Of a stretch of 64,000 bases of DNA, positions 8,963-52,558 are shown one piece after another. How positions within the stretch are numbered: position 1 is the stretch's first letter; every line of letters starts with the position of its first letter. Both the position numbers and the translations under genes were made by a program. Under the pieces are notes generated by a model. It worked only from the letters and a program-made list of their open reading frames with translations. It did no database searches and was not told the origin of the DNA. The stretch is from Omphalotus guepiniiformis (taxonomy: Eukaryota; Basidiomycota; Agaricomycetes; Agaricales; Omphalotaceae): contig JAQOOI010000017.1 in NCBI GenBank assembly GCA_028554645.1, forward strand, positions 806,001 through 870,000, read 5' to 3'.

Positions 8963-11900
8963 ATGGCTGCTTATGTCTTCAAAAGAGGTACTGTACTCAT
9001 TAAACGTGTTGCTACTTTCTCTTTCTAATACGCGTCGACACCGCAGATGGGTACGTGTCTTTTCTAGCGCGTTCGGACGCGTCAAAAGGGCTATGTACTT
9101 ACAAATTGCTATCAGTCGAAAGGAGCGTGTTCGATTTGACAAGGTTCTACCATTCATTTAGTCAGTCTTGGTTTCCGCTCACCTCGTCTCTAGATCACGT
9201 CGAGGATCGACAAACTCTGTTACGGACTTGATATGAACTACGTCGATCCCATTGAGTTCGTGAACGCTTTGCGCGTCTCATGACTCTACTTACCTTCGAC
9301 CATTTCAGGGTGACTCAGAAAGTTGTTCAAGGAGTTTATCAAGGAGTTACTACAGTCGAGCTTGACGTGCGTTCTCTTGCACAAGCCTATTTCAATACCC
9401 TTGTTTCTGACTACAAAATCCTATAGAACCTTGCCGCTGAGACCGCTGCGTATCTTACAACAAAACACCCTGATTATGCCATTCTTGCCGCGCGAATCGC
9501 TATCTCAAACCTCCACAAGGAGACGAAGAAGAACTTCTCTGCAGTAATCAAAGATCTATACGAGTATAGTGCGTGTTTTTCTTTGATATTCTCAAAGACT
9601 GCTCTCAACTTATGATAACTCATCATTGCACAGTAAACCCCAAGAATGGGCGTCCGGCAGGAATGATATCTCAAGAGACGTACGAAACTGTTCAAAGCAA
9701 TCGCGAAGCTCTAGACTCAGCTATAATATACAACCGTGATTTCAATTACAACTTGTAGGTTGAGCAAGTTTATCGTGATGGAAATGGACTTACTAGGTGC
9801 AGTTTCGGTTTCAAAACACTAGAACGCTCGTATCTTTTACGAATTAATGGGCGCGTAGCGGAGCGGCCTCAGCACATGATAATGCGTGTCGCCGTTGGCA
9901 TCCATGGAAGTAACATAGAGCGGGTCATTGAGACGTACAACCTCATGTCTGAACGCTACTTCACCCACGCTTCGCCTACTCTCTTTAATGCTGGAACTCC
10001 TCGGCCCCAGTTGTCTTCATGCTTCCTTGTTTGCATGAAAGATGACTCTATTGAAGGCATCTACGATACTCTCAAAAACTGTGCCATGATTAGCAAAACC
10101 GCCGGTGGGATCGGTTTGAATATTCACAACATTCGAGCATCTGGGTATGTTGTGTTGCATCTTTCATCTTTCAAACCCGTATTGATCGTTCCTTCATTAG
10201 ATCATACATTGCTGGAACTAATGGATACTCTAATGGTATCGTTCCTATGCTTCGCGCTTATGATGCTACTGCTCGGTATGTCGATCAGGGGGGAAATAAA
10301 CGTCCCGGTGCCTTCGCGATCTATCTAGAACCTTGGCATCCTGATATCTTCGACTTCCTTGATCTGCGTAAGAACCACGGCAAAGAGGAGAGTCGAGCTC
10401 GTGATCTTTTCTACGCTCTTTGGATTCCTGATCTCTTGTGAGCTTGCTCGTTTTCCATTCTTTTTTTTCCGCTGTTGAAACGTTATCAGCATGAAACGAG
10501 TGGAAGCCAATGGTGAATGGTCGCTGTTCTGTCCGAACGAAGCGCCTGGCCTTCATGAAGTCTACGGTGCCGAGTTTGAAGAACTGTACGAGAAATACGA
10601 GAAAGCAGGGCGCGCTCGCAAGGCTGTCTCTGCTCAAAAGCTTTGGTATGCTGTACTCGAAGCTCAGATTGAGACCGGTGGACCGTTCATGGTATACAAG
10701 GATGCCGCCAACTGTAAGTTTTACGCCTGCTTTGCCTACCTCTCTAATAAACTTCGGTTCACCCATAGCCAAATCCAACCAAAAGAACCTGGGCACAATA
10801 AAGTCTTCGAATCTTTGCACAGAAATCATAGAGTATTCATCTGCGGACGAAACTGCCGTCTGCAACCTCGCTTCTCTTGCCCTACCCACCTTCATTTCCA
10901 ACGGCAAATACGATTTCCAGAAGCTGCATGACGTGGCGAAGGTCGTCGCGTTCAACCTTAATCGCATTATCGATGTGAACTTCTACCCGATCCCCGAAGC
11001 GCGTCGTTCGAACATGCGACATCGCCCTATCGGTATCGGTGTACAGGGTCTCGCTGATGCTTTCATGGCTCTTCGGATGCCGTTTGACTCGCCCGAGGCA
11101 AAGGAGCTCAATCTCAAGATATTCGAGACCATATACCATGCAGCCCTTGAAGCCAGTACCGAAATTGCCGCTACGGATGGTCCGTATGAGACTTTTGTAG
11201 GAAGTCCTGCCAGTCAGGGTGAGCTTCAGTACGACATGTGGGGCGTTACTCCAAGCGATCTTTGGGATTGGGCCGCGTTGAAGGAGAAAATTGCCAAGTA
11301 TGGGCTGCGAAATTCACTTGTGACAGCACCTATGCCGACGGCATCGACGAGTCAGATACTTGGGTTCAATGAGTGTTTCGAACCCTACACCAGTAACATC
11401 TATACTCGTCGTGTGCTTGCCGGTGAATTCCAGGTCGTCTGCCCTTGGCTGCTCCGCGAGCTCGTCGAACGAGGTCTGTGGGACGACGATATGAAGAATA
11501 TTATCATCGCGCACCATGGTTCTGTTCAAAACATACCTACCATACCTGACGACATCAAAGCGATCTACAAAACAGTCTGGGAGATCAGCCAAAAGAAAGT
11601 GCTCGACCTTGCGGCTGACCGTGGTGCCTTTATCTGTCAAAGTCAAAGTCTGAACGTTCACCTGCAGGCGCCGACTCTTGGACAGCTCACAAGTATGCAT
11701 TTCTATGGGTGGAAGAAGGGCCTGAAGACAGGGATGTATTATCTCAGGACACGACCCGCAGCGCAGGCCATTCAGTTCACAGTCGACCAGAGCGTATTGA
11801 AGAACGCCAAGTTGCAGCAAGCACAGGCCGCAGAGGCCAGAAAATCTGCCGTGCCACAGACACAGACTCCGAAGCCGGTAACAAGTATCGGATCTGCTAT

Positions 11901-12153
11901 CGGATCTACTGGGATAGCTTCGTCGCCTGTCGTGAACGGATCTACTGGTGCTTCCTCTTCATCAACTGTTCCGGCACCTCTTTTCACCGCTAATGATGGC
12001 GATGCAGCGCTCGATGAGAGGACGCGGAGAGCAGCCGAGGCTGACCCGGAGTTTGCCGCTGCGTTACAGAGGCAGAAAGACCGTGAGTTGGAGGAGGCGA
12101 AGTTGTTATGCTCGATTGAGAATAAGGAGGCGTGTTTGATGTGTTCGGGCTGA
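8963..12153 (+). CDS. RNR1: Ribonucleoside-diphosphate reductase large subunit (class Ia R1)
   Basis: This enzyme makes deoxyribonucleotides from ribonucleoside diphosphates in the cytosol, as a complex with the radical-bearing small subunit. Splicing 8963-8987, 9048-9051, 9116-9143 and 9194-9259 gives the N-terminal ATP cone '[19 protein letters not shown]' followed by '[10 protein letters not shown]'. Core motifs follow: the redox cysteine in 'PQLSSCFLV', '[11 protein letters not shown]', the loop '[13 protein letters not shown]', the thiyl-radical site 'SSNLCTEI' (N-x-C-x-E type) with its partner in '[11 protein letters not shown]', and '[18 protein letters not shown]'. The C terminus ends in the redox tail C-L-M-C-S-G, after a low-complexity linker of about 90 residues rich in Ala, Ser and Thr. 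The long last exon begins near 10766. The intron at about 9260-9318 is my least certain junction. Two ACGCGT boxes lie in the first two introns. Confidence 0.95.
9031..9036. promoter_or_regulatory. MCB-type box ACGCGT in intron 1 of RNR1
   Basis: Perfect MluI cell-cycle box. In yeasts MBF binds such boxes to give G1/S expression of RNR1. Here it sits inside the first intron, 17 bases from the 3' splice site. Confidence 0.35.
9077..9082. promoter_or_regulatory. MCB-type box ACGCGT in intron 2 of RNR1
   Basis: Second perfect box, within the palindrome GACGCGTC, 46 bases from the first. Confidence 0.35.
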
Positions 12154-23272: not shown

Positions 23273-25852
23273 ATGGATAGAATCAAGCTTCTGTCATCCC
23301 GGGGGTTTCTGGGTCTCTTAGGACCTGGTATCGACGAATTAGCATCTACAGCTCTGGAATCGATTTCCCAACCCATATGTGCTTCAAAAGCAGAGACATC
23401 GTATCATGTCACGGTTTTAAATAAAGCAGAGCTTCAGAACGTAAAGTTATCTCCAGAAGAAATACACGCCCTTCGTCCCGACACTAGTCGCGTTTACAGC
23501 GTCGGTGTCGGCGGGAACCCCGCGAAAGGCATCCATTTCGCTGTGATCATTTGGGCAGAAGGTCAGCTGCTACGTAAACGACTGGGACTACTTCCAAAGC
23601 ACTTTCACATCACATTAGGCCGTCAGGATAACCATGACGTGGACAAAAGTATACACTCCCTACTTCCAGGGCAATTTCCCGAATCACCTCATCTGGACTT
23701 ACTCGACCATCTGATATTTACTCTCCACATCTTTGCCGACTATTCCACTGCCCAGAAATACTCTACTGATCTCATCTTGGCTTTTCCGAGCTCATTCAAA
23801 GGCTTCTTGCGGCTTGCCGATGCCGCATCACAGAGCTCGCAGTGGAAGCTTGCTATGTTGTCATATGCATGTGCCTATGAGCGAGCGTTCGACAGCAAGA
23901 GCAGAAACTACTGTCTCCAACAATTACGAAAATGTAGCGAATATTCAGAGTGGGCTTGTGTATTACAAGCTCTCGAGATGAATCAACTGCCTCACGAGAT
24001 CGCCGCGACCTTGGTTGGCCCTTGGACGGATGACTTGAAGGGATCCATTAGCGATCTCGTTATGAACCCCGCTCTTTACTTGGAATCTCGGGTCGCGTTG
24101 CATGTTCCGATCCTCACAGGGTCTTCCGTCGCGTTTCACAGACTCCCCCGCTTTTTCCGTTGGATAGTTCCTTTTCACCTTGCTGCCATGTCTACCCCAC
24201 GGAATGAAGATGATATCGCACTGCTCATTGCGATAGGTATTCGTACTGTCCTGACACTGACAGAAGAGGAGCCTCTGCCTCGTCATTGGTTTGAAAATAA
24301 ACCCATATCCAATATCTTCCTCCCTGTACCAAATTATTATCCTCCTTCTATCGAACAAATGGACATTGTCATGCGACTTGTGAACGACGACTCCAAGCTT
24401 CCGTTGTTGGTTCATTGTGGGGGCGGTAAAGGACGTGCTGGAACAGTGATAGCTTGTTATCTTGCCGCTTATGGCTTCAGCAAACCCAGGCCGGGACAGG
24501 ATCATCCCGAAATGTCAGCGGCAGAGGCAATATCTGTACTTCGTAGTTTTAGACCTGGAAGTCTGGAGACCGCCCAACAAGAAGCATTCGTGTCAAAATG
24601 GTGTAGTACCATCTGGAAGCGACAATCAGTCCATCCTGATCTCCCTTCCGAACCGCCTCCTTGCTCTCTAGTGTTTGAAGGCTCGCTCGAAAAAGAAGCT
24701 AACCTATTCGTACTGGTCGGTCTGCCTGGGTCTGGAAAGTCCTGGTTCTCCCAGGCTTTATCGACTAGGGATCCCAAAGGATGGACTCGCATCTCACAGG
24801 ATGAGGCTGGTAGTAGATCGTTCTGTGAGACCGAGATAGGCTACGCTAGGAATAACAAGGTCTTACTGGATAGGTGTAACACCGCTGCGTCTGACCGCAA
24901 GATATGGCTCAGTTTGGCATCAAATTGGGCTCGTCATCCTGTTTGCATCTGGTTCGATTATGAACGAGATTTATGTGAATCGAGGGCACAGACGAGGAGT
25001 GGGCATCCTACACTTCCTCCTGGAAATCGAGTACGCAATGCGGTGGATCAAATGGACCGCGTTTTTATACGTCCAAATCTGGAAGAGGAGTTCAAGACCA
25101 TTGTCATAGTAAGATCCTTCGCAGCCGCTTATGATCTTGTAGTTCGACTTTCCCCACCACTCGGTATCTACAAATTTCCTCGCACTTCGCACTTGCTCAA
25201 TCTGGGTGCTGCTACGTCGGACGATATAATAAACAATTCACCACTCCCTTCATCTGAGCACGTCGTCATCACTGAAAAGATAGACGGAGCAAACATGGGA
25301 TTCTCACTGTCTTCGGATCGTTCACAGATCGTTGTGCAGAATCGGTCGCACTATGTAAACCCCTCTAGTCATGAACAGTTCAAGAAACTTGGCTTGTGGG
25401 TTGATCGTCATCGTGAAGATCTGTACAGAGTATTGGACCGAGATGAACATTTCGCTGAACGATATATACTTTTCGGAGAGTGGCTCTCAGCTACCCATTC
25501 AATACCTTACACTCGCCTGCCAGACCGGTTCATAGCATTCGATCTGTACGATCGAAGTACGGACACGTTCATGGACAGACAGGCTCTCAAAGCTTTACTG
25601 GAACCTACGATGATTGCCATTGTTCCTGTAATTCATGAGGGCTTGATGCCTTCAAACGAAGAGCTCGAAGAAATGGTTCAGAAGACTTCCAAATACTGGG
25701 ATGGTCGTGTAGAAGGCGTTTATATCAAATCGGAGAAGCAGCATCGAGTGGTGTGGAGGGGGAAGGTAGTCAGAGCCGATTTCATATCAGGAAATAAGCA
25801 TTGGAGTAAAGGCCATTTGCAATGGAATGGGTTTACTTCCGAGGATGTGTAG
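23273..25852 (+). CDS. Four-module RNA repair protein: 2H phosphoesterase, Cys phosphatase, polynucleotide kinase, RNA ligase
   Basis: One uninterrupted exon of 859 codons, unusual here where most neighbours are split. In order: residues about 40-120 carry two H-x-T motifs, HVTV at 45-48 and HITL at 112-115, the active site of 2H phosphoesterases; 150-240 is helical; 290-445 is a Cys-based phosphatase with the CX5R loop 'HCGGGKGRAGTV' (C382, R388); 475-615 is a P-loop kinase with Walker A 'GLPGSGKS' (483-490), 'RISQDEAGSR' and 'LLDRCNTAASDRK' as in polynucleotide kinases; 630-840 is an RNA ligase with 'TEKIDGANMGF' (nucleotidyl lysine K669), 'FGEWL' (734-738), 'FIAFDLYD', 'EGVYIK' (814-819) and 'WRGKVVRADF'. 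From the families: the 2H domain opens 2',3'-cyclic phosphate, the phosphatase removes a phosphate, the kinase phosphorylates 5'-OH, and the ligase seals. The whole pathway is inference. No signal peptide is seen. Confidence 0.88.
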   Translation: MDRIKLLSSRGFLGLLGPGIDELASTALESISQPICASKAETSYHVTVLNKAELQNVKLSPEEIHALRPDTSRVYSVGVGGNPAKGIHFAVIIWAEGQLLRKRLGLLPKHFHITLGRQDNHDVDKSIHSLLPGQFPESPHLDLLDHLIFTLHIFADYSTAQKYSTDLILAFPSSFKGFLRLADAASQSSQWKLAMLSYACAYERAFDSKSRNYCLQQLRKCSEYSEWACVLQALEMNQLPHEIAATLVGPWTDDLKGSISDLVMNPALYLESRVALHVPILTGSSVAFHRLPRFFRWIVPFHLAAMSTPRNEDDIALLIAIGIRTVLTLTEEEPLPRHWFENKPISNIFLPVPNYYPPSIEQMDIVMRLVNDDSKLPLLVHCGGGKGRAGTVIACYLAAYGFSKPRPGQDHPEMSAAEAISVLRSFRPGSLETAQQEAFVSKWCSTIWKRQSVHPDLPSEPPPCSLVFEGSLEKEANLFVLVGLPGSGKSWFSQALSTRDPKGWTRISQDEAGSRSFCETEIGYARNNKVLLDRCNTAASDRKIWLSLASNWARHPVCIWFDYERDLCESRAQTRSGHPTLPPGNRVRNAVDQMDRVFIRPNLEEEFKTIVIVRSFAAAYDLVVRLSPPLGIYKFPRTSHLLNLGAATSDDIINNSPLPSSEHVVITEKIDGANMGFSLSSDRSQIVVQNRSHYVNPSSHEQFKKLGLWVDRHREDLYRVLDRDEHFAERYILFGEWLSATHSIPYTRLPDRFIAFDLYDRSTDTFMDRQALKALLEPTMIAIVPVIHEGLMPSNEELEEMVQKTSKYWDGRVEGVYIKSEKQHRVVWRGKVVRADFISGNKHWSKGHLQWNGFTSEDV

Positions 25853-25981: not shown

Positions 25982-28900
25982 TCATTCACCTCCAGCCATC
26001 TCCAACAACTGCTCAATACTCTTCCCCAAATCATTCTCATTAGCCTCCAATACCCATTCAACGACCTCAGTATCAACAGCAGGGAAGATCTGAATCAGCG
26101 TTTCCCTCGCAGCCTCCGTAGCCCTCGAGTGTGCCGAGTCAATCTCTGCTTGCATACCAGCTATATCCAAGTCTGCCTCTGTACCCGCAGTCCCAGGCGT
26201 AGCAGGGCGCGATGCATACGAGGGAGACCCAGGCTGATACTGATAAACGTACTGCGGATCCACAGCTTGACCATTCCAAGACCCTGGCCGAAAGAATGAC
26301 TGCCCTCTCGGAGGAGCCTGTAATGCCTGGGATGGTCCTATAGCGAGCGGTGAATTGGTGTACGGCGCTTGACCGGGCCTTGGCCGTGAAGGCGTATCCT
26401 CTGGAGAATAACCCGGGGAGGTCATCCCTTGCCCTAAGGCTTGTGCTTGTGCTAAATACCCACCTGGTGAAGGAACTCTCTTCACTCGAGGTTTATATGG
26501 CGTTTGGATTGGCGGGGGTTGACTATCTGCTGAAGGAGCAGGCGTTTGAAATCCGCCTATCCATGGTGCAGGTGACGAGGAGCGGGAATCGGGCAGACTT
26601 TGGCTGGCTATTACTTGAGTTGTATTTGGGTGCGACCTAAAAAACGGGAAAAATGACTCAATGCGCGTGTTTGAAGTAGAAAGACAAACTACATACCATG
26701 AAGGTATTGTGGGAGCTCCAGTCCCAGGCGTACCAAACCGAGAGCTCCCTGCATTTCTCTCCCCATTCGAACTGAATGGATCCTCAACCATATCCAGCGC
26801 CTCATTAAAAATCCTACTGATCGCGTTTAAAGGCTTACTAACCGCATCGCCAGTCTTGCGCAAAAGCATACGGGCATCCTCTGAAAGCTGCAGTGCTATG
26901 GGTGTCGATGCTCCTGAACCCTGCGTGAGAGGTAATGAGAGCGGCTGTGCAGACTCTTCACCAGCATGGGGCGAAGCTGTCTTGCGTGGTGTAGACATGG
27001 ATGATATGGATGACGATGATGATGAAGACGAGGAGGACGATGTAGAAGAGACAGAATTGATAGGTCCAGGGTAAGGTATTGCCGGTGAACCGTCAGCAGA
27101 CAATGGGAGATTTTGTATTGCAGTTTCGACGTTTCTAAAGGTGTACCGGGCGGTGAGTACAGTCAAACTGATCGAAAATTGGTATCACTGACTTTTCAAA
27201 CTCCTCTTGCGTTATATTCGACAACGAGGTGTGATCCATGGTCTCGATGAACTGCACTGCGCCCATCTACATACACCGTTCGCATTCACAAGTCAACGAC
27301 GAGACGAGGGAGGTCATTACAGTGAAAATACTCATCAAACTGGACAAATAATATCCAGCTTCACTCTGCAGCTTCTCGGGGTTCCGAAAACGGTTGATGA
27401 ACCTTTAACAAGGAGAAAGAGGTCGTTAGCAAATGGTTCTTATGAAAACAATATCCAACATACTCAACATTCGAAAGCAAATTATCTGGATTTGCCTTGA
27501 GCACCACAAAGATGAGTATAGGCACAAACGAATCTGCACCCTCGTCTGTTCGTAAATGTCGAATTAGACCTATATTGCGAGCAACTAGTCAGCATCAGAA
27601 CAAAGGACAGTGAGGAGCAAAGAAGAAGGGATTGAGGATGGGAAGGACGTGAAAAGGAGAATAGGAGGCAAAGGAATGGAAAGGGACAGAGGCGGACCAA
27701 AGATGACCTTGCAACAGTTGAGGATGCATATAAGCTTATCTCGTGGTGCCTTGTAATGATTTATCTTGAGTAGCTCTGTCCAAGATATTAGCTGTTGTCT
27801 TACCATAAGCTTCAGCACTTACCTTGCTCAGCAAACATCAAAAAACCATTACTCCCTTCTCCTACAGGCACGTCCAAATGTTCCTCCCGGATCCACCCAA
27901 ACAATGCAATCCTCTGTGCCAACACCCGATCTCTTTCCAAATCGTCTGCAGTGACAGGTCTCCTCGGTGCTCCCGTCAAAGGATTTATATCCTTGACAAC
28001 TGCAGGTGTAAAAGTGTACTGATAAAGCTGATTCATAACCAACTTCTCCATGCCCTCCATAGCATTATCAAATTCAGCATCAGACGCGCTCTTCCACGGC
28101 TCGCAAAGGCGCATTTGGTTAGAGATAAAATTGAGGAAATCATTGATAATCTTGATTTGGTCGTTCACCGTGAACGTCCGTTTCGCGAAATTCGTGAGGA
28201 ACCTGTTCTTACACGGTTATGAATGAATAGAAGAAATGTGACTATTCCACGTACGATTTAAGATATTTAGACACCGGCTCTGCACTGCGCAACTTCATCT
28301 GATCCAGAAACTTCTGAAAATCAAACGACGGCTCTCCGCCATTGCCTTGTGTCGGCGAAGTCATTCTTGACTGCTCATTGCTTCCTCTCGAGTTGTTCTC
28401 ATTGACATTTGACGGTGTCCCAACCCTCGATCGATTAGGCGTCGAAGACGACGACTCTCCATCCTGGGTTTGGTCTTGCTGTGTAGCAAAATAAGACAGC
28501 GTATTGGGAGAAGGTACGGCTTTGGCCGTGTCAAGTGATACCGGGCGAGAACGCGGCGTTCCGACAGCGGAGAGTGCGGGGATAGAGAAAGATCGTGCGA
28601 GAGCTGCTAAAGAGGAAGGAAAACTTGATCCTAGCGAGTGTGTCGAGCGGTGCGTTGGTGTATGAGGGGCATCTTTTGACGGAGGAACAGGCGGAGGTGG
28701 GGAAGTTGTTCGATCGGGTGAAAGTGGTGCTGGTGGGTGACCTTCACTCCTTTCCCAAGCCTTTCGGGCATCTTCTTCTTCTCGATCCGCTAATGGATCA
28801 AATTCGTCTAATATGTGAGTGGGTGGTGGACTGTGCAGTGTAGGGGGTGGTAAGGTGTCGGGATCAGCAGCAAGGCCTGCTGTGATAGACATGTCCATCG

Positions 28901-40087: not shown

Positions 40088-43000
40088 TCACTCTTGTGTA
40101 GGCTCAACTGCATCAGATTCGACACCAGTTCCTTCCTCTTCTTCACCGTCGCCTCCTCCATCCGTTTCCATTTCCTGCTGTGCCTTCCTATAAAAGAAAA
40201 CGATTCGATAAGAGCTCAAACGACTGTGAAGCGGCGTACCTGAAAGCTTCACGACACTCATTTCTGATCGAAGTATTCTTCCATCGTTGTCGACGGGAAG
40301 TAGGCGCTAACAGATCTTCATCCAACGCTAAAAATTCATGCCATGGTTAGCGCTTCAGATTCAGAAGTCAGCGGAAGAGGCAAGACACACCACTGTCTTC
40401 CCCCAACATCTTCAATTTCCCAGTGTCGACGTATTGCCTACATACATACATGAGTGAATAATCGCCCTTCAAAGGGAACAACAAGGGGGACATACCAAGA
40501 CTGTTGCTTATCGAAGAACCGCACAAAGTACATCTTGGCCTCCTTTTTCTTCTTCTTTTTTACATTGTCGGCAATTTTCTTGACACCTTTAGGTATTTTG
40601 GGATCATCACGTTCGAATACCACCGCAGGCCACCAAGGGAAGGTATCTATAGGTGACTGAATCAGTATCACAGAACACGTTGCGGGGAAGGAGAGTCGAA
40701 GTATCTGCTTTAGCCCAAACTAGCGTGCCACCTTCCAAATCCTGTCCAGGTCCAAGCAGAATTGCTCCCGGGTCTGAATCTTGCGTCGTCGTGGCAAGAA
40801 CAGATGAAGATGTCTGAGCTTCTTTCTTGATTAAGGGCCCGGAAGATGATTGACCGGCCTGAGATTGGGAAGCTTCTTTTCCCCGCGCGCCATCGTCTTC
40901 ACTTAAAGAGCTAAGGTCAGACTCGGCTTCACCTTTGTCGGCCTTCTTGACAACCGATGAAGACGAAGGATCTGGAATTGCAGGCTCTGCATCAACATCA
41001 AGAGCAGATGTTGACGGTTCTGGTTCTGGTTCTAGTCCTGGTTCTGGCTCAGTAAAGGAGGCGGCTTGCTTCAACCTTGCCCTCTCCGCCTTTCGCCTCA
41101 GGTTTTTCTCTCGCCGCGTCGCAGGCGAGTCCAACTCCTCGATGATTACTTTGCCGTTAGCGCGTATGACAGTCCCAATAGGAGGCAAGCGTCCCTCTTC
41201 GATGTACGACAGCGGGTTCTCGAAAAGCTCATCATCTATTTTCATGATGTCCTCCGATGATGGTCCAACCTGGGTATCTATTTGGGTATCCAATGGCAGG
41301 TCATTGACGGGCTGACCCTGATCCACGTCCATTTGCATAGATTCATCCGCAGCAGCGGCCGCTGCGGCCTGTGACAGAGCGCGTAATCCCACGGGTACCG
41401 ACACAGCATCGCTCCTTGATGATTGTGGTGCAGATATTTGCCCATCAACTGTGGCGCTCTCACCATGCTCCAACGTCTGATTATCCTCCTCCGTCGTACT
41501 GAATACAGACAACCCAGACGCGGCACGATCAACACGCATTTTCTTTTTAGGCGGAGGCACCGCAGGTCTTTCCGCTGCAGGAATTCTACCCCCTCTCTTT
41601 TGATCAGCGGGTAAAATCCAACCAGCGTTGAAGTATTTGAAGGAATGTTGCTTGTCGACGTCCTCCAGAAGACCAGGATGTGAAGGTAAAGGCTCTGCTA
41701 TAGACTTTTTTGACCTGAGAGAATGGATAGCGGAAGAAGTCGATGCACCAAAGTCTTCGCCACTGAGTGATGAACCAGATATCGGACTAGCCTCCACACG
41801 TCCTGAACTCCTCGTTCGAAGTTTTCGCGATTCAGGCGGGATTTGAAATTGTCCTTCGAGGCCAGGAACTCTATCTTTCGCTGTACGGCTTTTTGGGGCT
41901 TTGCCTTTACGAGGTTTAGGAGGGGCAGGCGGCGGCGGCGGGGGTGGAGGCTTGAAGACGGGAAACTCAAAGCTGAAAAGTGAGGAAATAGGGTCGGTGT
42001 TCAAAAGGAGAGGGATGTCGTCCTTCACAGCGTCGAGAGAGAAAAGAAGTTCGAGCAGTTCGAGAGGAGGTTCGAGATCGCCGATTAGGGAGACCGAAGG
42101 TATAGCAGATGGAACGGGAGTTGGATTCTCGACTTTTGTCTCGCCATCGGCTTCAGCGTGGGCCTTGCCTTCTGAGCTAGCCGGAGGAAGATATTTCGTC
42201 GTGGAGAGACGTTCAAGACCTTCTAGTATAGGCCCTGCAGCATTTCGTATCTTCCCAGCAGTCTTGTAGAAAGGCGTTCCTGGTTTATTATACAGCATTG
42301 CGTTGTCCAGCACGAGTTCTATGTCGTCCTGCGCTACTATGAACATTGGAAAGAGGAAGTAATCATGAAAATCTCGCACCTTGAAATCCTTAATGTCCCA
42401 ATACTCGTGTTTATCCAATCTCTCGTCGATGACAGTCCAACACATCGGTCGAGTGATGATATCAAAGTAATCAGGTACTTCAGCTTTGCTGACAGGATTC
42501 TTGAAGTAATCGTTCTTGTCAAGCCTTGATAGCATCAAGTTCAGGAAGATCATCTGAAAGTCATGCAAAGAAACTCACCCTACGATACGCTCAAAAGCAA
42601 GCCGAAGCGGAGGCTCGTGAGGAAACAGACAGGTTGAGAATATCTCCTGAATGATCTCCAACTGCTGTTGTTTCCTAGTCTCCCGCTTCCAAGTCAACTT
42701 CGTGAGCTCGCGTACAGATTCGAGATCTTTTTGCAACATCCGCAATTGCTACATATGACCCCAACAATCAGTGACGCGACACGCTGATAAAGATTCTTTG
42801 CTCACCTCAAGCTTCATAGCTCTTTCTTCCTCACTCTGTAGTTTATTATTGGCACCATTAGCCGTCCAAGGCTCGAGGTGAAGCCTCTTGAGCAACGGTG
42901 CGCCTCGCCTAGCTTCTCGCTTCAAGCTCCAATACCGACACACCAAGAGGAGAAAATCATATTTCTTCCTCAGCACTACCTTGGAAATGTACTGAGAGAT

Positions 43001-50468: not shown

Positions 50469-52558
50469 TTACATCCTCTCCAAAGGCCTAAGAGTCAATA
50501 ATCTCATACTAGCAGCCAAGACCTCCCTCGCAGACTCATACAACCACATCCTAGCCCTCGCCTTCTCCACATCCTCCTCACCTTTAACAACCACCGTCTC
50601 CCACGCACTCGAAATCGCATGACTCAATCTAAATGCGAACGTTACTACGCCGCTCGGTTCGTGCGTCTTTAGAGCTGTTTTTACGACGTCGGGGTAGCTA
50701 CCGAGTAGGAAGACGATCTCCCGCGCGTGTGCGGATGTGGTGAGGGTTGTGATGTCTATTTTTGAAGGCTCGGGTAGAGGGAGTAGGTGAGGGTTTTTAC
50801 GACCGATTGAGGCTAGTCGGACGTGTGCGTATTGGAGGTAGGGACCGGTATCTCCTTCGAATGATTTCATTCGGTCCCAGTTGAATGTGTAGTTGTTTAT
50901 CCTGTGGGGCCCGGCAGAGGTTCGGTGAGTCCAGCGGAAAAACAGTCTGAAGGAGGGGCACTTACCGTTTGGCAGCCATATCTTGGATTTTAACACCAGA
51001 GATACCTAGTTCCTGGCTGACCATCTCTGGATCTATAACTGCATCGTATTTCTCCTTGTTCTTCTGCATCTGCTCGTGCATCACCTGCGCGGCCTCCTTA
51101 ATTATTTGATCGAGGAAGACGACTGTACCCTTTCGAGTACTCATTCCTTGAACCAGACCATAGTTCACATGAACGAGGTCTTTTGCCCAAGGGAATTCCA
51201 TAAGCTCGAGAACCTTGAAAAATTGCGCGACGTGTAAATCTTGCTGAGAAGAGATGACATAGATCATTTTGTCAAACTTGTATTTCTCGTATCGTTCCAT
51301 TGCACCGCCAATATCTCGAGTGAGATATATAGAAGTTCCGTCTGCGAATGGGATTAACGATGGATAGGCAAGCAGATTTGGTATGGACGTACCCTTCTTT
51401 CGAACAACTGCTTTGCCCAATTTATAATCCTGCAGGTTAACCAACTTGGCACCTTCAAAATCGTCAATGAGACCCTTCTCATTCAAATGAGTCACAGCCT
51501 TTTCTATCGATTCCTTCCCAACCATACTCTCTCCATGATACACATCAAAATGTATATTCAACCTCTCATACTCTGCTTCGTACTTCTTGATACTCAGTTC
51601 CCGCCAGACTCGCCAATTCGACAAAGCAGTTTCATCCCCGTCTTCCATCCGACGGAAGAACTTGCCAGCCTCAGTTTTAACTTCCGGATCAGCTTCAGCA
51701 TCTTTGTTGATTTTGACATAGATCTCGTAGAGGTGGTGAATAGGATCTTTCTCTAATTCTTCTTTGGAGCCGTATTTCTCAAAGCCGACGGCGATGAGAC
51801 CGAACTGAACAAAATTGCAAGTCAGGATGGATGCTATAACGACAAATGAATGTCTAGATACCTGCGTTCCCCAGTCACCGAGATAGTTCATGTTAACGAC
51901 ATCCCATCCACAGGCTTTGTATACATTGGCAAGGAAAGAGCCAATAATTGTACTTCGCAAGTGTCCGACATGGAAAGATTTGGCGATATTCGGTGAAGAG
52001 TATTCTATGATAACCTTCTTGCCTTTCCCATAAGAATTTGTGCCGTATTCAGGTTTGCCTGAAGCAGTGGAGTGGGTAAGGGTGTGTACTTGATTCAGAA
52101 TTTCCCGAGTAAGAGAAGTAGTATTGAGTTGGAAGTGCAAGAACGCTTTGTCGTGGGTGACAGAAGCAACAAAGTCATCAGCTTGAAACTTCCACGCAGA
52201 TTAGTTTCAACGACATTGCTAGATTAAAATAGATACTGACCTGGTCAATGACCTTCTTTGCTAGCTCGTCTACCTTGCCCGGTAGTCTGAACCTAGGCAA
52301 GGCAACAGTGAAATCAACACCTTTCTTTCCATAGTCCACCCCAGAGTACGCCTGTTCAAGAGTGAGAGGTTCAAGTGCCTCGGATACTCTTTTTGCTATT
52401 GAGATACGAAACGCGTCGAGGATACAATTTGAAGGGTCGGTGTCTGGCACTTTTGGCACTGAAGGTAATGAGGAAGCCATTCTTTTGGTGAAAAGAGGAG
52501 GACGAAGAAGTAATGATACAAGTGGACGACGGATAAAGGAATAGAAAGCCAGTTTCAT
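50469..52558 (-). CDS. Arginyl-tRNA synthetase, class I, probably both cytosolic and mitochondrial
   Basis: Charges tRNA-Arg. Class I signature 'SPNIAKSFHVGHLRSTIIGS' (HIGH as HVGH), then 'GWDVVNMNYLGDWGTQ', 'YGLVQGMSTRKGTVVFLD' (the KMSKS equivalent M-S-T-R-K-G), the anticodon-binding DALR-like end 'NWDRMKSFEGDTGPYLQYAH' and 'ISSAWETVVVKGEED', ending '...LRPLERM' at TAA. Introns lie near 52150-52240, 51805-51870 and 50905-50980. Two in-frame ATGs exist: 52558 gives 'MKLAFYSFIRRPLVSLLLRP' plus 'PLFTKR', an Arg-rich, acid-free stretch fit for mitochondrial import; 52480 gives 'MASSLPSVPKVPDTDPSN' for the cytosol. The start is divergent to the NAD(P)HX dehydratase gene, 127 bases apart. Confidence 0.93.

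Follow-up and report, generated by a model that had tools for sequence, protein, structure and literature searches.

A probable Swiss Army Knife-type enzyme for RNA end healing and sealing, encoded by an intronless gene of Omphalotus guepiniiformis

Introduction

The fusion of RNA repair domains described here has been recognised before, since Pfam names two of the domains 'Swiss Army Knife' (SAK), a name that is said to originate with Burroughs and Aravind in Nucleic Acids Res. 2016. The CDD name 'HAD domain in Swiss Army Knife RNA repair proteins' also appears in a table (PMC7765460). No experiment on the SAK family was found in the literature searched, and no description of a 2H-helical-PTP-kinase-ligase architecture was found there either, in a search that was limited and does not amount to there being none in print. 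In the fungal tRNA ligase Trl1, as in the protein analyzed here, a ligase, a kinase and a 2H-type phosphodiesterase are joined in one chain. Among phosphatases of the PTP type, VHZ is described as having Glu134 for its primary general acid, with Asp65 subservient to it, and Mce1, DUSP11, Cdc25, PTEN and Siw14 are given as PTPs without a WPD motif (PMC9038691).

We analyzed a gene in a 64,000-nt stretch of O. guepiniiformis contig JAQOOI010000017.1 (the window). The initial annotation could not tell whether its exact architecture had been described; the Pfam names show that it has been recognised. Its product (P0001) is a SAK-type protein.

Results

The gene occupies positions 23273-25852 (+) of the window as an uninterrupted frame of 859 amino acids plus a stop, which upheld the proposal of a single intronless 859-codon gene. 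The open frame has 870 codons, so that the start ATG lies at most 11 codons from its beginning. In a protein search of its own genome (42.5 Mb, 80 contigs) the SAK gene was the sole match. A chance reading frame was rejected, as the Pfam and homologue matches are far beyond chance. From the N- to the C-terminus, Pfam recognized 2H-SAK (PF22547; residues 12-121, 63.4 bits, 3.1e-17), PTP-SAK (PF22784; residues 292-440, 205.7 bits, 4.9e-61), an AAA_33 kinase (best stretch 524-598, 44.1 bits, 3.2e-11) and RNA_ligase (PF09414; residues 662-824, 120.3 bits, 1.2e-34), all above the curated cut-off, which is 27 bits for each of the four. The order first suggested, i.e., the reverse of that in Trl1, was thus found, and the named motifs were present in the translation: HVTV at 45-48 and HITL at 112-115 (H45, T47, H112, T114) and C382-R388 in the N-terminal half, and GLPGSGKS at 483-490, KIDG at 669, GEW at 735-737, EGVYIK at 814-819 and RGKVVR at 829-834 in the C-terminal half. 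The AlphaFold model of the full chain, a prediction that the initial annotation had proposed, was confident (pLDDT 93.5, pTM 0.89).

The 2H phosphoesterase domain (residues 12-121; 23306-23635, +) retains both H45 and H112. It is followed by a TPR-like helical domain (residues 141-260; 23693-24052, +) that has no Pfam match and had been overlooked; its conserved residues include D145 (144 of the 147 rows with a residue), H146 (142/147), R180 (146/147) and K192 (147/147), and with this part included the full order is 2H-helical-PTP-kinase-ligase. A structure search with the N-terminal part gave no match at E<=0.001; no 2H fold was among the structure matches listed, which is uninformative because TPR chains filled the list. 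The DSP/PTP phosphatase domain (residues 292-440; 24146-24592, +) has VHZ/DUSP23 as its nearest solved fold. The polynucleotide kinase domain (residues 474-612; 24692-25108, +) carries its P-loop at 483-490 together with D510, R571 and R575. The RNA ligase module (residues 625-857; 25145-25843, +), with K669 as the predicted nucleophile, stops shortly past motif V. Rnl2-type ligases have an additional C-terminal domain, and the module is too short to hold one. From its domains and motifs, P0001 is probably a SAK-type RNA end-healing and sealing enzyme, and we set the probability of this reading at about 0.7.

Among 7994 candidates scored in a protein search with P0001, 563 were homologues at E<=1e-3. 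The best 120 of these were mostly of the same length, most with 95-100% query coverage, and the species named among them were agaricomycete fungi (e.g., Moniliophthora roreri, 65% identity). When the profile was weighted to distant ligase relatives, a second search gave 595, of which the best 120 were still mostly from the same mushrooms; full-length relatives were present among these 120 in Rotaria socialis, Adineta ricciae and Rotaria sp. (47-49% identity) and in the moss Ceratodon purpureus (44%). With our own profiles the bdelloid rotifer and moss relatives have the domain order of P0001, and Pfam was concordant for the two that were scanned (P0256 and P0276). As this order is kept at 44-49% identity, the fusion is a maintained unit. 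The alignment used below has 163 rows (P0001, the best 120 of 563, and 42 new ones from the best 120 of 595), in which mushrooms are over-represented and taxa were taken from source names that many rows lack.

A search with the ligase domain, limited to lengths of about 132-420 aa so that full-length SAK proteins could not show up, listed relatives from Phytophthora, Adineta steineri and Adiantum by their names, and one Phytophthora protein (P0236) also carries PTP-SAK. In a ligase-domain tree of 141 rows, 131 of them distinct (20 SAK-type, 10 of these without an organism name, 80 bacterial and 41 viral; L028-L032 and L151-L200 excluded), all 20 SAK-type rows fell on one side of a single branch (SH-aLRT 94). 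The other SAK tree took 22 of the first 121 rows and excluded P0244, P0254, P0265 and P0266; tree supports are SH-aLRT values from short searches. Shorter proteins (559-605 aa) that lack the 2H and middle matches, three of them from named rotifers (P0247, P0264, P0282), interleave with the full-length ones in the tree, and since they may be gene-model fragments they were excluded from the evidence for 2H loss. A SAK protein without a 2H match was also seen in Kwoniella dejecticola, a yeast-like basidiomycete (P0243). It was placed among the agarics in one tree but, in the ligase tree, basal to the mushroom-rotifer group, a conflict that may reflect transfer, contamination or tree error.

We then turn to the phosphatase active site. 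Ordinary PTPs are slowed by loss of the WPD-loop acid, and also when the Ser/Thr that follows the P-loop Arg is replaced by Ala; P0001 has the two changes, which count against the reading as an end-healing enzyme. When P0001 was aligned with VHZ (4erc), N354 (24332-24334, +) was found at the site of Asp65, the WPD-loop acid, E432 (24566-24568, +) at that of Glu134, and A389, which directly follows the P-loop C382-R388 (24416-24439, +, with A389), at that of the Thr after the P-loop Arg; Asp65 and Glu134 were numbered by counting along the 4erc line of the alignment. The Asn at the usual position of the acid had escaped the initial annotation. Position 354 is N in 157 of the 158 rows with a residue and D in the remaining one (gap in 5), and C382, R388, A389 and E432 are invariant in all 163 rows, as are K489, D510, R571, R575, K669, R691 and E736. 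Hence, the Cys, Arg and Glu134 equivalents of a VHZ/DUSP23-type enzyme are present (C382, R388, E432) and the WPD-loop Asp65 is not, and the family seems, from its alignment, to have lost the secondary acid of VHZ and retained its main acid. A dead phosphatase was rejected, the Cys, Arg and Glu being invariant. Nothing on a site with a kept Glu and an Asn in the WPD loop was found in the literature searched, with searches that were not aimed at the phosphatase site of this family.

The 2H site behaves differently. After removal of 24 of the 163 rows, in which the 2H region was short or position 45 or 112 was a gap, both histidines were present in 124 of 139 relatives and lost in 15; one row without His in a broader list of 16 (P0095) has a gap at the site and is outside the 15. 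On a quick tree of the phosphatase, kinase and ligase columns these losses required a minimum of 12 changes, and the substitutions fall inside recognisable motifs. In the same 139 rows C382, R388 and E432 of the phosphatase and K489, D510, R571 and R575 of the kinase were unchanged (139/139), and the chosen ligase residues were unchanged in 138, the exception (P0117) being a gap and not a substitution, a pattern that favours the self-contained healing-and-sealing logic proposed initially. The median identity to P0001 was 45% for the 2H domain, 43% for the middle part, 69% for the phosphatase, 65% for the kinase and 64% for the ligase. The 2H step thus looks optional at the level of conserved residues; with its histidines lost in 15 of 139 relatives, the opening of cyclic ends would not always be carried out by the SAK protein itself, and the obligatory four-step chain that had been envisaged has to be relaxed.

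The odd phosphatase site and the recurrent 2H loss together suggest either a central phosphatase with an optional 2H step, or the opening of cyclic ends by another enzyme in 2H-less species, for which the CPD of Trl1 is one candidate. A tentative variant, which we consider doubtful, is that the phosphatase (Glu-only E432, Asn in the WPD loop) is the main 3'-end healer of SAK proteins, maybe opening 2',3'-cyclic phosphates as well, with a 2H domain that is optional and was repeatedly lost by mushrooms. That the phosphatase does not heal ends at all, and instead serves to bind phosphate ends or to remove a different group (for example a 5'-triphosphate or another phosphoanhydride), is unlikely. 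The conservation of Asn354 (157/158) and Ala389 (163/163) would suit such a role, WPD-less PTPs exist (PMC9038691), and precedents without a WPD-loop acid are PFA-DSP1, which acts on inositol pyrophosphates, and the RNA triphosphatases Mce1 and DUSP11. However, Glu432, which matches the primary acid of VHZ, is invariant, and given the fusion with a kinase and a ligase, end healing is the simplest use of the domain. Furthermore, the WPD-less PTPs also include Cdc25 and PTEN, whose substrates are monoesters, so that the absence of the motif leaves the substrate unfixed.

The ligase matches also support the preferred reading of P0001 as an RNA end-healing and sealing enzyme. The best solved relative by profile was a Naegleria RNA ligase (E 9.9e-5), and the solved relatives by fold included Naegleria, trypanosome editing and archaeal RNA ligases and 1s68 'RNA Ligase'. 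It is quite improbable that the protein repairs nicks in DNA or RNA-DNA, as might be proposed because many homologues carry the database name 'ATP dependent DNA ligase', the kinase matches include the mammalian DNA-repair PNKP, the Naegleria RNA ligase is 'nick-sealing' according to its PDB title, and a viral protein matched by fold bears the name putative DNA ligase. Against this, all ligases among the PDB matches listed are RNA ligases, the DNA ligase 3qwu gave only E 0.074 by profile, and the 2H domain, which acts on RNA ends with a 2'-OH, indicates ends of that kind.

A search of the same genome for separate Trl1 and Tpt1 genes, as had been advised, found Trl1 exons and Tpt1-like loci. On C76, the Trl1 exons for ligase, kinase and CPD follow one another in that order on the minus strand (184347 to 181745), and Tpt1-family matches are at three C18 loci, at ~805 kb (partial), 934 kb and 941 kb. 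The latter two Tpt1-family loci are ~6 kb apart on opposite strands. The PF09414 ligase has one match only in the genome, the SAK gene. Two more partial PF09511 matches were seen beyond the Trl1 locus (L114:1185-2483 on C60 and L115:2133-2837 on C39). The usual tRNA-splicing gene set is present and separate from the SAK gene, which makes a replacement of the tRNA ligase by SAK unlikely and goes against the unconventional (HAC1-type) or tRNA splicing role in place of Trl1 that had been thought of. That P0001 stands in for Trl1 as a backup ligase in tRNA splicing or HAC1-type splicing is improbable, as its domains cover three Trl1 activities but Trl1 exons and three Tpt1-family loci, one of them partial, exist in the same genome.

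The ligase has bacterial cousins with neighbours of their own. In the best 80 of 452 bacterial ligase loci, chosen by likeness to the SAK ligase and so favouring one group, the ligase was the sole match of five SAK profiles in 79, and at one locus (L110) a frame next to the ligase matched the kinase profile. A HEC-03A-like gene lies on the same strand, adjoining or overlapping the ligase frame, in 70 of the 80 (L033-L112; reference L095:3005-5675), a HEC-03B-like ATPase is nearby in 73 and a BrxHI-like helicase in 13 (reference L095). HEC-03A and HEC-03B are a candidate anti-phage pair, and such neighbours connect the bacterial ligases with candidate anti-phage islands. Among the loci, PADLOC was run on the genes of L095 and L086 only, and no model matched the L095 ligase; Pfam has no family for the L095 HEC-03A. 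The sequence of that HEC-03A may be read as a PIN-type nuclease, and the genes may form a nuclease-ATPase-ligase defence unit that has repair built in. The passages on HEC/HEC-03 seen in PMC12988326 and PMC13356809 make no mention of an RNA ligase. A conflict-related history of the ligase fits these observations, without being proved by them. A PADLOC-modelled defence gene was rejected as the identity of P0001, which has no PADLOC match.

Two scans of IMG/VR contigs (16 loci, and 80 kept of 100, partly the same contigs) did not find the full SAK architecture. The first 16 loci had the ligase profile only; the 80 had the ligase alone in 74 cases and the ligase with a separate kinase frame in 6. 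Two giant virus proteins in BFVD, A0A3G4ZM97 of Terrestrivirus (859 aa; E 3.1e-63, 930 columns, TM 0.25) and A0A2H4UUE0 of Bodo saltans virus (649 aa; E 4.3e-38), match much of the P0001 model at 24-26% identity.

Around the SAK gene, nine frames of the window were scanned, and nothing among them pointed to a mobile or defence cluster; five of the nine lacked a Pfam match. The four with matches (10510-12153, 25982-27166, 40607-42568 and 50962-52140) gave ordinary families, namely ribonucleotide reductase, a CUE domain, a bromodomain and a class I tRNA synthetase (R type). A synteny with PfkB, taken from the fused models P0050, P0113 and P0278, was rejected, as the tail of P0278 has no match in the window; for P0050, P0113 and P0041, matches in the window were confined to the region of the SAK gene.

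Discussion

From its domains, a course of reactions can be proposed for P0001. The substrate would be a broken RNA with 2',3'-cyclic phosphate and 5'-OH ends, its binding perhaps aided by the TPR-like domain. The 2H domain would open the cyclic phosphate, and the VHZ-type phosphatase would strip the remaining monophosphate via a Cys382 phosphoenzyme, its general acid likely being Glu432 and not a WPD-loop Asp. The kinase would phosphorylate the 5'-OH, and the ligase, adenylated at Lys669, would join the 3'-OH to the 5'-P, so that no 2'-phosphate would be left and Tpt1 would not be needed. All the reactions, the RNA substrate and the order of the steps are inferred from the domains.

If the parts work as suggested, a single polypeptide would convert the ends that many ribonucleases leave into a sealed RNA, with no need of Tpt1, in a fungus that has Trl1 as well. 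This would be a second RNA repair pathway alongside tRNA splicing, and which RNA it acts on, and after which nuclease, becomes a testable question. The phosphatase would also add RNA ends to the known chemistry of PTPs without a WPD-loop acid.

Compared with Trl1, the domain order of P0001 is reversed, a phosphatase and a helical domain are added, and the families differ (PF09511, PF08303 and PF08302 in Trl1; PF09414, AAA_33 and PF22547 in P0001). The three Trl1 families were not listed for P0001 with HMMER filters that drop most matches at E>0.1, and have matches elsewhere in the genome; the order ligase-kinase-CPD is not that of P0001, and a Trl1 fragment was rejected as the identity of the gene. 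Bacterial Pnkp and animal PNKP likewise hold a kinase and a phosphatase in one chain, and bacterial Pnkp also carries a ligase, but the phosphatase of P0001 has the PTP fold, and P0001 scored far below the NCBIfam cut-offs of both (TIGR04075, bacterial Pnkp, 22.4 vs 750 bits; TIGR01663, PNKP, 31.4 vs 502.8 bits), as well as below that of Rnl2 (TIGR02307, 18.5 vs 197.15 bits). The Mucorales kinases solved as GDP complexes (9d8a and 9drz) are, unlike P0001, single-domain chains of 165-176 residues. VHZ/DUSP23 differs in that its Asp65 is replaced by Asn354 and its Thr after the P-loop Arg by Ala389. The agreement is with the SAK proteins: P0001 has 2H-SAK with two HxT motifs and PTP-SAK with CX5R, i.e., both SAK-named domains, together with the kinase and the RNA ligase in the same chain, and no feature was found that sets it apart from them. 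Two details, the Asn354/Glu432 phosphatase site and the recurrent loss of the 2H histidines, were not seen described in the literature searched.
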